DNA of 60,166 nucleotides, from contig JABDJB010000049.1 of assembly GCA_013003425.1 (NCBI GenBank), positions 1 through 60,166 of the forward strand, given 5' to 3'. Positions 21,560 to 27,322 of the stretch are shown one piece after another (within the stretch, counting starts at the first letter, position 1; every line of letters begins with the position of its first letter). The stretch is from Gammaproteobacteria bacterium. Lineage in GTDB: Bacteria; Pseudomonadota; Gammaproteobacteria; Steroidobacterales; JABDKV01. Both the position numbers and the translations under genes were made by a program. The notes beneath the pieces are model-generated. The model was not told where the DNA came from and did no database searches. It saw only the letters and a list, made by a program, of their open reading frames with translations.

Positions 21560-21587
21560 AAAGGCCCGTCCATCCGGACGGGCCTTT
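21560..21587. terminator. Bidirectional rho-independent terminator
   Basis: AAAGGCCCGTCC and GGACGGGCCTTT form a perfect 12-bp stem with an ATCC loop, flanked by A-run and T-run. It lies between the convergent GT2 gene and the Cys-repeat gene and can serve both. Confidence 0.93.
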
Positions 21588-21611: not shown

Positions 21612-22142
21612 TTAGCTGCGCTTGCGGCGCAGGCCCAGCAGACCCAGCAGGCCGAGCAGACTCAGCGGGCCGGTGGCGCCACTGCCTGAGGCCTTGTCGG
21701 CTGCTGCGTCGACTGCTTTGCTGGCAGCCTCGCCGGCGGCTTTCATGGCGTCGTCGGCCTTGTCGCCGCCACAGGAACCTTCGGCAGCCTTGTCGCCACC
21801 ACAGGAACCTTCGGCAGCCTTGTCGCCACCACAGGAGCCTTCGGCAGCTTTGTCGCCGCCACAGGAACCTTCGGCAGCCTTGTCGCCGCCACAGGAACCT
21901 TCGGCAGCTTTGTCGCCGCCGCATTTGCCTTCACCGCAGGAACCTTCGGTTTTGGCTTTGTCGCCGCCGCACTTGCCTTCGCCGCAGGAGCCTTCGCCCA
22001 GGTCGGCGACCATATAGCCGCTCGACAGCGTGGTCATGCTGAACGGGTTGGTGTCGGCCTGAGCCGGCGCCGTCGCCAGGGACGTTGCCAGTGCCGTGCT
22101 GACCGCGGCTGCCAGAGGCGTGATATTCAGTTTCTTAGCCAT
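21612..22142 (-). CDS. HvfA-like Cys-repeat RiPP precursor candidate with GlyGly-CTERM-like tail
   Basis: This is a 176-residue exported protein. A signal peptide ends near residue 29 (APAQA), followed by NPFSMTTLSSGYMVADLG, which is typical of HvfA-type oxazolone/thioamide-modified RiPP metallophores. The core has nine Cys in EGSCG/EGKCG units: two EGSCGEGKCGG pairs (C53-C74), then five identical EGSCGGDKAA-type units (C84, C94, C104, C114, C124). An Ala-rich segment follows, and the C-terminus is ATGPLSLLGLLGLLGLRRKR, a hydrophobic tail with terminal Arg cluster like GlyGly-CTERM/rhombosortase substrates. In HvfA systems a DUF692-type MNIO with a partner protein modifies the Cys to bind copper; neither gene is adjacent. 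A TGGAGA site precedes ATG 22142. Confidence 0.75.
   Translation of the reverse strand: MAKKLNITPLAAAVSTALATSLATAPAQADTNPFSMTTLSSGYMVADLGEGSCGEGKCGGDKAKTEGSCGEGKCGGDKAAEGSCGGDKAAEGSCGGDKAAEGSCGGDKAAEGSCGGDKAAEGSCGGDKADDAMKAAGEAASKAVDAAADKASGSGATGPLSLLGLLGLLGLRRKRS
21761..21910. repeat. Five near-identical 30-bp tandem repeats (coding)
   Basis: Five consecutive 30-bp units begin at 21761, 21791, 21821, 21851 and 21881 and differ only at a few synonymous positions. Each encodes one ten-residue Cys unit of the HvfA-like protein. Copy number is likely to vary between strains by slippage. Confidence 0.95.
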
Positions 22143-22234: not shown

Positions 22235-22276
22235 ATTATAGGCAAACAGCATCTACGCCGTTTGACCTTTATAAGG
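22235..22276 (-). promoter_or_regulatory. Candidate promoter of the HvfA-like gene with adjacent inverted repeat
   Basis: On the minus strand TATAAT (22240-22235) is a perfect -10, but no good -35 lies 16-18 bp upstream. At 22266-22276 the arms CCTT and AAGG flank TAT, extended to GACCTT..AAGGACC. A weak -35 beside a dyad suggests an activator-dependent promoter; the regulator is unknown. Confidence 0.4.
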
Positions 22277-22638: not shown

Positions 22639-22668
22639 AAATGAGAATCATTGCTATTTACATTCTCA
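22639..22668 (+). promoter_or_regulatory. Fur-like box upstream of TonB-dependent receptor
   Basis: AAATGAGAATCATTGCTAT (22639-22657), followed by an inverted ATTCTCA (22662-22668), closely resembles Fur sites of the AATGAGAATCATT type. It lies about 25-50 nt before the receptor start at 22692. Confidence 0.75.
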
Positions 22669-22691: not shown

Positions 22692-24890
22692 ATGCCACAA
22701 AGTCCGATATACCTCGCAGTCACGGCAATGCTGCTGGTTGCGACAACAGCCGGTGCAACAGGCGAGCCGACCCGGCTGGAAGAAGTTTCGATCCTTGGCG
22801 ATCCGGATCGCATCGACACCATTCCCGGATCAGCTCACCTGCTTGACGATGAGTTTCTGGCACGTTTTGAATCGGCCGACATACTGCGGGTACTGCAGTC
22901 GGTGCCTGGCGTGTACCTCCAGGAAGAAGATGGGCAGGGACTGCGGCCGAATATCGGCATTCGCGGTTCCGGCCTGGATCGTTCAAGTCGCATTGCATTG
23001 CTGGAAGATGGCGTGTTGATTGCGCCGGCACCGTACGCCGCACCGGCGGCGTATTACTTTCCGACACAGCGGCGAATGAACAGTATCGAAGTACTGAAAG
23101 GCCCGGCCTCTGTCAGTCTCGGTTCGCGCACTACCGGTGGCGCGCTGAATATGGTGTCAACGCCAATTCCTGATGACCTCGCTGCGCGGGCAGATCTATT
23201 TGCCGGCCAGGATGGTTTTCGTGAGGGGCACCTGTGGTACGGCGACACCAGTACAAACGCCGGATGGCTGGTCGAAACCGTGCAACAGCGTAGCGATGGC
23301 TTCAAGCAGCTCGATACCGGCGGAAGCACTGGTTTCGATATACGTGATTACGTGGGCAAGTTTCGCCTCAACACCGCCCGTGACAGCGGGATAAATCACG
23401 GTGTTGAGATGAAAATTGGCTACACCGACCAGGTTTCGGACGAAACATACCTGGGCCTGACCGAAGACGATTTTAACGCCACGCCGTATCGTCGTTACGC
23501 GGCCTCACAGCTTGATCAGATCCGTACCACGCATCGCCAGCACCAGCTGACCTATTTTGTTGAGCCGGTGCAGGGACGCTGGTCGGCTGACATAACGGTT
23601 TATAACAACGAGTTTTCTCGCAACTGGTTCAAGCTCGGTTCGGTCGCCGGTACCGGTATCAGCACGATACTCGACAACGCCGACGCGTTCGCAACCGAGC
23701 TGGCATGGATACGCGGCGAACAGGACAGCCCCGATGATGCGCTGAACCTGCGTAACAACAATCGCAGCTATTTCTCACGCGGGGTACAGGCGGCCGCGGG
23801 CTGGCAGTTTGACAGCGGTTTTGCGGACCACAGTCTGCGTGTCGGGTTGCGGCTGCACGAAGACGAAGTAGACCGATTCCAGCACGATGATGAGTTCGCG
23901 ATACGCGACTCGCTGCTGGTGCTGACAACGGCAGGCGCTCCGGGTTCGCAGTCCAACCGGGTGAGCAGCTCCACGGCAACGTCACTGTTTATTGAGGACC
24001 GCATTGCTTTTGGCGCATGGGAAGTATCTCCGGGCCTACGGCTCGAGCGCATCGAGATGGAGCGACTGGATTTTTCCACCGCCGATCCGGATCGTGCAGA
24101 CGGCCCGACGCGCGAGCGCGACAATACCGTCGATGTTTTTATTCCCGGCCTGGGCATTACCTATTCGCTGGATAATGGCTGGCGGCTTATCGGCGGCCTG
24201 CATCGCGGTTTTAACCCGCCGTCGCCTGGCAGCAGCGCCGACGAGGAAGACAGCACCAACCTGGAGTTTGGTGCGCGTTATAGCAACGGCATCTTCGATG
24301 CCGAGTTAATAGCGTTTTATACCGACTACTCCAACCTGGTAGGCACCTGCACCGCATCGACAGGTGGTGACTGCATGATCGGCGATCAGTTCGACGGTGG
24401 TGCGGCGACCATTGCCGGTGTAGAGAGTGTTGTCGGTTTCGAGTTTGCCGAGGTGGCGGGCACCGCACTGCGGTTGCCGCTGCGCCTTGCCTATACCTGG
24501 ACTGCAACTGCCGAGTTCGACAGTGGCTTCGACAGCGGTTTTGATCCCTGGGGCGAGGTTGCAGCCGGTGACGAATTGCCGTACGTGCCGCAGCACCAGG
24601 CGCAAATCGCTGCCGACCTGAAAGGGGCAAACTGGCGCGCCGGGCTCAATGTCAGCTACGTCGATGCGGCCCGCACCATGGCCGGGCAGGGCCCGATTCC
24701 GGCTGGCCAGGGCACGGATTCACGCTGGACCGTTGACCTGTCCGGCAGCTATCGGCTGAGCGCTAGCTTCGAGCTTTATGGCCGTATCGATAACCTGCTG
24801 GATGAAGACTATCTGGTGGCGCGCCGGCCGGCCGGACTCCGGCCGGGTAAACCACGCTCCGCGGTCATCGGTTTTCGCTTCGAACTGTAG
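22692..24890 (+). CDS. TonB-dependent outer-membrane receptor, FecA-like
   Basis: This 732-residue outer-membrane protein has a signal peptide of about 22 residues, a plug domain (about 30-160) and a beta-barrel ending in the usual aromatic/hydrophobic residue (GFRFEL). The TonB box region is LEEVSILG. The plug motifs SVPGVYLQEEDGQGLRPNIG and RMNSIEVLKGPASVSLGS match the FecA/iron-chelate receptors, but there is no N-terminal signalling domain and no FecIR pair. With the Fur-like box upstream, uptake of an iron complex is likely; another metal or ligand is not excluded. It ends 5 nt from the convergent repeat protein. Confidence 0.9.
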   Translation: MPQSPIYLAVTAMLLVATTAGATGEPTRLEEVSILGDPDRIDTIPGSAHLLDDEFLARFESADILRVLQSVPGVYLQEEDGQGLRPNIGIRGSGLDRSSRIALLEDGVLIAPAPYAAPAAYYFPTQRRMNSIEVLKGPASVSLGSRTTGGALNMVSTPIPDDLAARADLFAGQDGFREGHLWYGDTSTNAGWLVETVQQRSDGFKQLDTGGSTGFDIRDYVGKFRLNTARDSGINHGVEMKIGYTDQVSDETYLGLTEDDFNATPYRRYAASQLDQIRTTHRQHQLTYFVEPVQGRWSADITVYNNEFSRNWFKLGSVAGTGISTILDNADAFATELAWIRGEQDSPDDALNLRNNNRSYFSRGVQAAAGWQFDSGFADHSLRVGLRLHEDEVDRFQHDDEFAIRDSLLVLTTAGAPGSQSNRVSSSTATSLFIEDRIAFGAWEVSPGLRLERIEMERLDFSTADPDRADGPTRERDNTVDVFIPGLGITYSLDNGWRLIGGLHRGFNPPSPGSSADEEDSTNLEFGARYSNGIFDAELIAFYTDYSNLVGTCTASTGGDCMIGDQFDGGAATIAGVESVVGFEFAEVAGTALRLPLRLAYTWTATAEFDSGFDSGFDPWGEVAAGDELPYVPQHQAQIAADLKGANWRAGLNVSYVDAARTMAGQGPIPAGQGTDSRWTVDLSGSYRLSASFELYGRIDNLLDEDYLVARRPAGLRPGKPRSAVIGFRFEL

Positions 24891-24895
24891 CCCCG

Positions 24896-27322
24896 TTAAA
24901 GCTCCGAGCAGTCCAGCGCGTTGTTGTCGTCGCGCAAACCCTCCAGCAACCAGTCGTTGACGAACCCGGCGTCGTTGCCTTTGCCGTTACCCTGCGGCAG
25001 GCCGCAATCTTCGGGTCCGTCCATTTCATCGTCCGAGCAGGAGCGATGGAACTTTGATTCGCCGATCAGGTTACCGGCGCTGTCGAAAATCTCCCAGTGC
25101 ACATCATTCGGGGCATCGGCAGCGGTGAAATCGCCTGCCGTGACTTCATTGCCGATGAACAGGTCACCCGATGTATACACCAGGTCCGACCCCGGATCAC
25201 CTGCGTAGGCGCGAATATTGACCGGCTCGACCATGCCATCCCAGATCATGGTCAGTTCACGCAGCTTGCCGTCGCAGTCGCCGAACGGATTCGACCCCGG
25301 CTCGAAGCTAATACTGCAGCCCTCGGCAAAAGTCACCGTAATGGCAATGTCGTCGGGTTGCGCCTGCTTGTACTTCTCCTTGAACTTGATTTCGAGCGTG
25401 CTGGTCTTGCCGGCCTCGATCTGCCGATCCTTGAGCTTGCCGCTGAACGAGTCGATGGTGGCGGCGGGCGGTGCCAGCTGTTCTTCGAAGATCTTGTCAC
25501 CTTCCAGTTTCACTTCGCGCAGCGCGCCAAACTCGTTCGGCCAGGACACTTCGATTGACTCGATGGTTGCGAAGTCGGCACCGGTGTTGCTGATATCCCA
25601 TTTGAGGGCGTCATCCTTGAGCTCGAATCCATCCGGGCTGACCTGGCAAGGTGGCGGCATTGCGACTGTAATTGGTGCGGTATCGAACGCCTCGCAGCGC
25701 AGGCCGTCGACATTGGCCACCAGCGTGGCGGTGCCGCTGACCGGGCCATTGATGATAGTCATGGCCTCGAGAATCGCACTCATACCCGGCGCCAGGGACG
25801 CGATCGGAGAGCCGGGCACGGTTGGCGGTTCGAGTGAAGTGTCAGTAACAGTTATGTCTGTCGCCAGCCCGGGACCCGGGTTGTCGACGATATAGCGGTA
25901 GAGCACTTCGATGCCGCCACGCACGGTTCCCTGTTCATCATTGGTAAAACCAGCAACCGTCATGGCGCCAAAGCTGTCGCCGATTGCCAGCGGCTGCGAG
26001 CAGGACGTGTGCAGGCGGATATGTTGTAACAGCATTCCGGACGGGTCGCGTATTTCGATCTCGACCTCGCTGTCAAACTCATCGCGGCCGGCAGCGGCGG
26101 CGCTGGCTTCGATCAGGTCGCCCGGCATCACATCATTGATATTGGCGTACACGTTGCTGCCCTTGTAGATAGTGACGCTCACCGGGCCGTCGGCGTCGTC
26201 CAGATCGGTGCACTCGAACTTGTCTGACGGCTGGTCATTGTCCGAATCCGGGCAGGCGGCACCGGTGTAACTGAACTGGATCTGCGTGGGTCGGTCGTCG
26301 CAGGCGGCCTCGCCCGCAGCCGGGATTTCACAGCTGTCGGCAAACTCTGGATCAGGTAAGCCGACGACATTGCCTTCTTTGTCGATAAACGCCTCGACCA
26401 GCCAGTTGGGCGAAGGATCGCCCTTGGGGTCGTTCAGCGGAGCGGGCTGGCCGGCAACGAATGGTGTGGAGCAACTGGTATGCAGCTCTTCGGCAACGCC
26501 GTCGATCGTGATCGTGGTACGTGAACCCAGGTCGTCTTCTCCACTTAGCGCGGCATCGATGCTGTAGCCGTTTTGTCCGGCCAGCACTGTTTCGTTGGTG
26601 GCCAGTTCTGCCGAATAGCTGGCGCTCGCGCCGGAGGCCCCGGTAATGGTGATGTCACTTACGCCATCGAAACCCGGACCGATATAGCGAAACCGTGCCG
26701 CGGCAATTTTTGATTCGCAGGCCAGGTTATTGCTGGCCGCTGATACCACCAGGCATTGTTTGTCCAGGGTGAGGTTGCAGTCGCTGGCACCGCCGACGCG
26801 GCCAAGCGTACCCTTGGCTTTGCCAGAGAAGTCTTTGAAGAATGTGCCGTCGAAAGTCGAGTTTTCACTGACAAGGTTCATTCCCAGTTCAGCTCCGGAA
26901 TAGCTGCCGGCCATGGAACCGCCGGTCACGGTAAACAGCAGGTCGTAAATATCGGTTGGACCGGACGAATTGACGACGGTGAACCGGGAGATTTCTGCTT
27001 CGAGCAGGACACCGGTGGCGTCGCGGACCTGCAGGTCAGGTCCGGGAGTGCCACCGAGCAGCGTGCCGAATTCGTCGATGCGAATGTTCAGGTTCAGTTC
27101 GGCCGGGCGTGGCACCGGCTGCGGGGTTGCACCGGGTGCCGGCTGCACGGCCAGTGGGATTGACTGCACATTGAACTCGAAAGCCGCCGAGCTGTAATAA
27201 GTGACGCCTTCGGCATTGAAAAACATCAACGGATGTCCCAGCTGCAGGCCCTGGGCCGAGGCAGTGCTGGCGAATAATACGGCGAGGGCCGCCGCGTGGC
27301 GGAGCAGGTGCAGGTTTGGCAT
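24896..27322 (-). CDS. Large secreted protein with three H[TR]SCS repeat domains
   Basis: This 808-residue protein has a signal peptide (cleavage near residue 23, ASA). The same motif closes three domains: LHTSCSTPF at 280-288, LHTSCSQPL at 437-445 and FHRSCSDDE at 758-766. Each is preceded by about 90 residues of the type VSVTIYKGSNVYANI...GDLI...VEIEIRD. Residues of about 465-550 resemble a DUF11-like conserved repeat (VLYRYIVDNPGPGLATDITV). Many Cys suggest disulfides. The domain resembles a poorly characterised repeat in surface or exoproteins (possibly DUF7467-like); the role is unknown, though a cell-surface or released structural protein seems likely. It is monocistronic and convergent with the TonB receptor. 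Confidence 0.75.
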   Translation of the reverse strand: MPNLHLLRHAAALAVLFASTASAQGLQLGHPLMFFNAEGVTYYSSAAFEFNVQSIPLAVQPAPGATPQPVPRPAELNLNIRIDEFGTLLGGTPGPDLQVRDATGVLLEAEISRFTVVNSSGPTDIYDLLFTVTGGSMAGSYSGAELGMNLVSENSTFDGTFFKDFSGKAKGTLGRVGGASDCNLTLDKQCLVVSAASNNLACESKIAAARFRYIGPGFDGVSDITITGASGASASYSAELATNETVLAGQNGYSIDAALSGEDDLGSRTTITIDGVAEELHTSCSTPFVAGQPAPLNDPKGDPSPNWLVEAFIDKEGNVVGLPDPEFADSCEIPAAGEAACDDRPTQIQFSYTGAACPDSDNDQPSDKFECTDLDDADGPVSVTIYKGSNVYANINDVMPGDLIEASAAAAGRDEFDSEVEIEIRDPSGMLLQHIRLHTSCSQPLAIGDSFGAMTVAGFTNDEQGTVRGGIEVLYRYIVDNPGPGLATDITVTDTSLEPPTVPGSPIASLAPGMSAILEAMTIINGPVSGTATLVANVDGLRCEAFDTAPITVAMPPPCQVSPDGFELKDDALKWDISNTGADFATIESIEVSWPNEFGALREVKLEGDKIFEEQLAPPAATIDSFSGKLKDRQIEAGKTSTLEIKFKEKYKQAQPDDIAITVTFAEGCSISFEPGSNPFGDCDGKLRELTMIWDGMVEPVNIRAYAGDPGSDLVYTSGDLFIGNEVTAGDFTAADAPNDVHWEIFDSAGNLIGESKFHRSCSDDEMDGPEDCGLPQGNGKGNDAGFVNDWLLEGLRDDNNALDCSEL

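Follow-up and report, generated by a model that had tools for sequence, protein, structure and literature searches.

The window, that is, the whole stretch of 60,166 nucleotides that was analysed, is contig C49 of a 3.26 Mb genome (G000) that is 95.5% complete. An open reading frame at 21612-22142 on the minus strand, for which the name hvfA2 is used here, begins with ATG and encodes 176 amino acids including nine Cys. The initial annotation had described it as an HvfA-like precursor with a signal peptide, EGSCG/EGKCG units and nine Cys, and its boundaries proved to be exact. A second genome of the same genus (G001) and three genomes of another family of the same order, f5 (G008, G022 and G035), served repeatedly for comparison. 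The features of the locus are listed below, with the basis of each in brackets.

21612..22142, minus strand: hvfA2, an hvfA-like gene for a RiPP precursor that ends in a sorting tail (ORF, profile scores and a homologue at the corresponding locus of the congeneric G001)
22056..22142, minus strand: predicted Sec signal peptide, residues 1-29 (sequence; cleavage after AQA placed by eye)
22011..22049, minus strand: conserved NPFSMTTLSSGYM segment (N-terminal alignment of 19 precursors)
21759..21995, minus strand: core of two EGSCGEGKCGGDK units, then five EGSCGGDK units, with nine Cys (presumed MNIO targets)
21690..21758, minus strand: Ala-rich linker, residues 129-151 (sequence; linkers are alike in other tailed proteins)
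21615..21689, minus strand: GlyGly-CTERM-type tail SGSGATGPLSLLGLLGLLGLRRKRS (Gly/Ser motif, short hydrophobic stretch and basic end; kept in G001, G008, G022 and G035)
21560..21587, no strand assigned: terminator-like hairpin with flanking A- and T-runs, between a convergent glycosyltransferase gene and hvfA2 (sequence read directly)
22236..22247, minus strand: TTTGCCTATAAT, a -10-like element upstream of hvfA2 (identical in G001; upstream sequences compared)

The Sec-type signal region of hvfA2 reads MAKKLNITPLAAAVSTALATSLATAPAQA; in HvfA and bufferin the Sec signal also serves as the RiPP leader (PMC13419390). The NPFSMTTLSSGYM segment is common to the tailed and untailed HvfA-like precursors of the alignment. 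The EGSCGGDKAA units of the core come from a 30-bp tandem array at 21757-21920 (5.5 copies, 94% matches, score 293), and the hydrophobic stretch of the tail was judged by eye to be about 13-15 residues long. The candidate terminator hairpin implies that hvfA2 is monocistronic.

Divergent from hvfA2 lies a gene for a TonB receptor of the FecA/siderophore type (22692-24890, plus strand; 72% identity to the receptor of G001), with a Fur-box-like palindrome, GAGAATCATTGCTATTTACATTCTC, upstream of it (22643-22667) that is kept in G001. The hvfA2/TonB locus may respond to iron, along with or instead of copper. A functional link between hvfA2 and the receptor was considered but not adopted; the two are direct neighbours in G000 and G001, but the only receptor seen in G008 is about 4 kb off and just 22.6% identical. 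The next gene (24896-27322, minus strand) encodes a protein of 808 aa that looks secreted, contains two DUF7467 stretches and matches no NCBIfam model; it occupies the same position in G001.

The hvfA2 protein scored 39.5 bits against a cut-off of 19.5 on the repeat model NF050137 (KCGExKCG_twice, 'HvfA family'). On the full-length HvfA equivalog model NF050188 it scored 32.7 bits, below the cut-off of 95, and the product is therefore termed HvfA-family and not HvfA itself. The score on TIGR03501 (GlyGly_CTERM) was 15.5 bits, equal to the cut-off of 15.5; when all six frames of the genome were searched, the tail reached 18.3 bits, the second-highest score among five GlyGly-CTERM matches with E ≤ 1. 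The tailed proteins of relatives scored 15.7, 15.7 and 14.2 bits, one of them below the cut-off, giving a range of 14.2-15.7 for the four full-length tailed proteins. A Pfam scan of the hvfA2 protein returned nothing above cut-off. By domain model and by the maturase content of the genome, the predicted product belongs to the EGKCG/HvfA repeat family but not to the HvfA equivalog, and by the criteria that can be computed it qualifies, if only marginally on the model score, as a GlyGly-CTERM protein. The resemblance of the C-terminus to GlyGly-CTERM substrates, claimed in the initial annotation, is upheld by these scores, and the HMM check proposed there for HvfA succeeded at the level of the repeat family and failed at that of the equivalog.

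Several other sorting routes were examined and rejected. A MYXO-CTERM (myxosortase) substrate is contradicted by a tail without the invariant Cys and by a TIGR03901 score of 14.9 bits against a cut-off of 20, and the scores for VPDSG-CTERM, WGxxGxxG and related tails were likewise below cut-off. A NedA-like lipoprotein RiPP was set aside as the signal region ends in APAQADTNPF and the first Cys does not occur before residue 53, so that there is no lipobox Cys.

The putative partners of hvfA2 are encoded on other contigs. On C16, one MNIO gene is followed by a DUF2063-type partner and then by a DoxX-type protein (hvfBCX), scoring on the NCBIfam models 421.7 bits for the HvfB-family MNIO (cut-off 360), 308.1 for HvfC (cut-off 142) and 228.6 for HvfX (cut-off 80); absence of an MNIO from the genome is thus ruled out. 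The sequence 5' of hvfB is masked with N (L015 7001-13001), which makes the hvfB start look truncated and leaves its first residues and any preceding gene unreadable. A rhombosortase (TIGR03902; 147.7-148.3 bits, cut-off 84) is encoded on C78 and retains WRLLS, SGILH and AHLYGAVIG, the family's loop and catalytic motifs being WRxxS, SGxLH and AHxxGxxxG (PMC3237569). Its gene is divergent from adjoining gspG-like pseudopilin genes, a neighbourhood shared with G003, G004, G008 and G035. The genome also encodes GspD, of the type II secretion system (544.5 bits, cut-off 351), and further ORFs with GlyGly-CTERM-type ends lie on C18, C96, C12 and C19. The initial annotation had proposed to search the genome for an MNIO, a DUF2063-type partner and a rhombosortase, and had named the lack of an MNIO or rhombosortase and of any HvfA match as counting against it; all three proteins were found above the NCBIfam cut-offs, alongside the HvfA-family match.

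The same annotation had called the gene an orphan whose expected MNIO (DUF692) and partner are not adjacent. This is correct for the position of the gene, hvfA2 being on C49 and hvfBCX on C16, but not for the genome, which encodes HvfB, HvfC and HvfX. Nor is the separation an oddity. In G001-G003, G008, G022 and G035 hvfB is likewise apart from any hvfA, with a DUF1841-type gene upstream that is mostly preceded by nth; unlinked precursor and maturase genes are therefore the rule in this lineage, and an orphan placement peculiar to hvfA2 was ruled out by its congeners and family f5. Adjacency of the two is usual for the HvfA family, not required. Elsewhere in the order (G019, G044 and G053) a repeat precursor is found no more than about 1.3 kb from hvfB, and in G019 (L168) the gene immediately ahead of hvfB encodes an EGSCG-type precursor, in support of EGSCG being a genuine core unit.

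These arrangements bear on whether the Cys of hvfA2 are modified at all. A precursor that undergoes rhombosortase processing and membrane attachment but is left unmodified by HvfBC, with a plain Cys array binding metal as thiols, would be in keeping with the lack of an adjacent MNIO and with units that are mostly EGSCGGDK and not paired EGKCG. We regard this as quite improbable, since HvfBCX is kept in the lineage though adjacent to no precursor, the leader segment is conserved, the EGSCG-type precursor of G019 adjoins hvfB and the tailed proteins of G008 and G022 contain canonical EGKCGEGKCG units. As to the type of modification, the initial annotation had suggested oxazolone/thioamide groups; the literature now assigns a 5-thiooxazole, formed by HvfBC from the Cys of EGKCG with a preference for precursor that still carries its Sec signal (PMC13097082, PMC13419390).

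The C-termini were compared among proteins of the relatives, of wider searches and of a scan of named-genome contigs. The repeat family is present in 27 of 59 relatives. At the whole-genome loci, nearly all untailed precursors stop soon after their final Cys unit, with 2-6 further residues in most and no more than 17 in any, a single frame-changing ORF aside; tailed precursors run 36-53 residues past this unit and include a strongly hydrophobic stretch. In the named-contig set, 77 of 79 are without a hydrophobic tail (one of these, interrupted by N, does not allow a judgement), and the other two are the G022 and G001 loci again. Of the more than 100 other HvfA-like precursors examined, nearly all end soon after the final Cys unit. 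Partly overlapping sets of 396, 369 and 398 genomes were searched with a profile built from the last repeat and the tail, and end-to-end matches came from five genomes only, namely G000 and G001 of one genus and G008, G022 and G035, the three examined from family f5. The tailed form is rare but recurrent. In two genomes of family f5 (L051 2441-5353; L054 7630-10334) the tailed precursor comes after msrA and a signal peptidase I gene (PF10502).

Such rarity would be in keeping with a decaying or accidental fusion, in which a copy of hvfA gained a hydrophobic reading frame that has no sorting function. This explanation appears highly improbable: two families of the order retain the same three-part tail, and within the genus the changes in the tail are mostly synonymous (6 synonymous and 3 non-synonymous differences over 19 ungapped codons between G000 and G001, with GSGATGPLSLL unchanged) and the position beside the same TonB receptor and the TTTGCCTATAAT element are both conserved. 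Selection seems to have preserved the tail. A tree built on the signal region groups the four tailed proteins with an N-terminus (that of the G035 copy is missing at a contig edge) together, with weak support (0.63), which hints that the tailed proteins share one origin.

Both hvfB and rhombosortase occur in all five tailed genomes. Rhombosortase is nevertheless common in the order (41 of 59 genomes), and by our own arithmetic the chance of finding it in all five without any coupling is about 0.16; co-occurrence was accordingly rejected as statistical proof. It does weigh against a plain C-terminal membrane anchor, left uncut by rhombosortase, that would hold a modified copper-binding peptide at the periplasmic face of the inner membrane. 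A signal peptide and a hydrophobic C-terminus with a basic end would be enough for such a topology, and the borderline GlyGly-CTERM scores would agree with it. The Gly/Ser-rich motif just ahead of the hydrophobic stretch is, however, kept in all five tailed genomes, and the stretch itself is short for a stable anchor. On balance we consider a plain anchor unlikely.

The reading we favour, and hold to be likely, is that hvfA2 encodes an oxazolin/captophorin-type (HvfA-family) RiPP precursor with a rhombosortase tail, which is modified by HvfBC in trans, exported by Sec and processed by rhombosortase to give an envelope-attached copper binder. In its favour are the repeat model above cut-off and the GlyGly-CTERM model at cut-off in a single ORF; the HvfB, HvfC, HvfX and rhombosortase equivalogs in one genome; the conserved rhombosortase motifs with pseudopilin neighbours and GspD; the other GlyGly-CTERM-type ORFs; and the recurrence of the tailed architecture in G001 and family f5 with mostly synonymous change in the tail. 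Against it stand a GlyGly-CTERM score that only equals the cut-off, with one relative below it, the weakness of the five-out-of-five coupling where rhombosortase is common, the missed HvfA equivalog cut-off and core units that are mostly single-Cys EGSCGGDK instead of the biochemically studied EGKCGEGKCG.

In the proposed pathway, the HvfBC proteins encoded on C16 would bind the precursor in the cytoplasm, in trans, through its signal/leader region and would convert the EGSCG/EGKCG Cys residues to 5-thiooxazoles. The sequence suggests Sec export with removal of the signal peptide, after which the C-terminal hydrophobic stretch would retain the precursor in the inner membrane until the C78 rhombosortase cuts the Gly/Ser motif. 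Rhombosortase cuts VesB of Vibrio in its Gly motif, and the new end gains a glycerophosphoethanolamine-containing moiety (PMC6219818); by analogy, the new C-terminus of the hvfA2 product may be joined to a moiety of this type. The product would be a copper-binding thiooxazole peptide attached to the envelope. A second hvfA-like gene, on C17, has no tail and would yield a soluble periplasmic form, so that the organism may hold two pools of one copper ligand.

A tail and rhombosortase suffice for membrane association, and crossing of the outer membrane needs an additional secretion signal (PMC13393428). The initial annotation had left the peptide either tethered or released by the sorting protease; tethering is the better supported, rhombosortase processing leading to membrane attachment (PMC13393428), and release the less so. 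The tail suggests a peptide fixed to the cell envelope and not loose in the periplasm. Type II secretion to the outer surface is possible but not implied by this pathway. The wider proposal, of an MNIO-made RiPP that is covalently sorted at its C-terminus by rhombosortase and displayed on the surface through type II secretion, with thiooxazole copper chemistry taking place outside the cell and a soluble untailed twin in the periplasm, is tentative and we place it somewhat short of an even chance.

Among known systems, the hvfA2 product most resembles the EGKCG captophorins (Buf_EGKCG), i.e. HvfA/oxazolin, FonA/fontiphorin and MmrA/bulbicupramide, with which it shares a signal/leader, a (N/S)PF-x-LSSGYM-like segment and repeated EG[K/S]CG units, its genome also encoding an HvfB MNIO, HvfC (DUF2063) and HvfX (DoxX). 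It differs from them in the added linker and GlyGly-CTERM-type tail, in its mostly single-Cys EGSCGGDK units, in being unlinked from the maturases and in scoring below the HvfA equivalog cut-off. NedA of Neisseria dentiae is a lipidated oxazolin for which a loss of 12 Da for three motifs and lipidation were shown in E. coli (PMC12636315). It too is an EGKCG RiPP attached to the membrane, as is predicted for the hvfA2 product, but NedA is anchored N-terminally by the lipoprotein pathway, whereas hvfA2 combines a normal signal peptide with a C-terminal rhombosortase-type signal. These cases suggest that anchoring of such copper ligands arose at least twice, by N-terminal lipidation (NedA) and by C-terminal sorting (hvfA2).

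With VesB and other GlyGly-CTERM proteins (Vibrio cholerae; PMC6219818, PMC13393428) the hvfA2 product has in common a Sec signal, linker, Gly/Ser motif, hydrophobic stretch and basic end, in a genome with rhombosortase and type II secretion. Cargo of the VesB type consists mostly of folded hydrolases (proteases, DNase), unlike the repetitive, presumably modified metal-binding peptide of hvfA2, which is also without an IG-type secretion domain. About 16% of Buf2 bufferins carry lipoprotein signals (PMC12452194); these are likewise MNIO-modified, exported copper-binding peptides predicted to be membrane-anchored, but they belong to another precursor family and their anchoring is N-terminal. GlyGly and CTERM go unmentioned in the MNIO landscape paper, which does list lipoprotein-type bufferins as well as large fusions. 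In the literature searched, C-terminal rhombosortase anchoring of a RiPP was not found described, no paper was found combining DUF692 with GlyGly-CTERM, and GlyGly-CTERM and copper appeared together only in a general type II secretion review. The hvfA2 gene thus joins a known RiPP class to a known sorting signal, a pairing not found described in these papers. According to a 2026 study (PMC13419390), mature oxazolins may either work within the periplasm or undergo export through a mechanism as yet unknown. A natural pair of paralogues with and without a rhombosortase tail, which one HvfBC would serve, makes the site of oxazolin action testable, and the range of candidate rhombosortase cargo is widened from mostly hydrolases to a presumably modified metal-binding peptide.

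The untailed gene on C17 adjoins an anti-sigma-like gene, and in relatives the corresponding neighbours are a sigma factor and anti-sigma pair; the loci concerned, that of C17 included, are L016 6739-7899, L057 9049-10238, L052 3337-4605 and L056 3664-5035. The tailed hvfA2 is without a sigma/anti-sigma neighbour. Such an arrangement has been reported for Buf1, not Buf2, bufferins (PMC12452194). Near the untailed locus, short repeats (L016 5467-6090; L057 149-703) read ESRQDAAPTK or KIAAGCRSYEA depending on the frame, and have the look of a dispersed repeat family, not of a gene.
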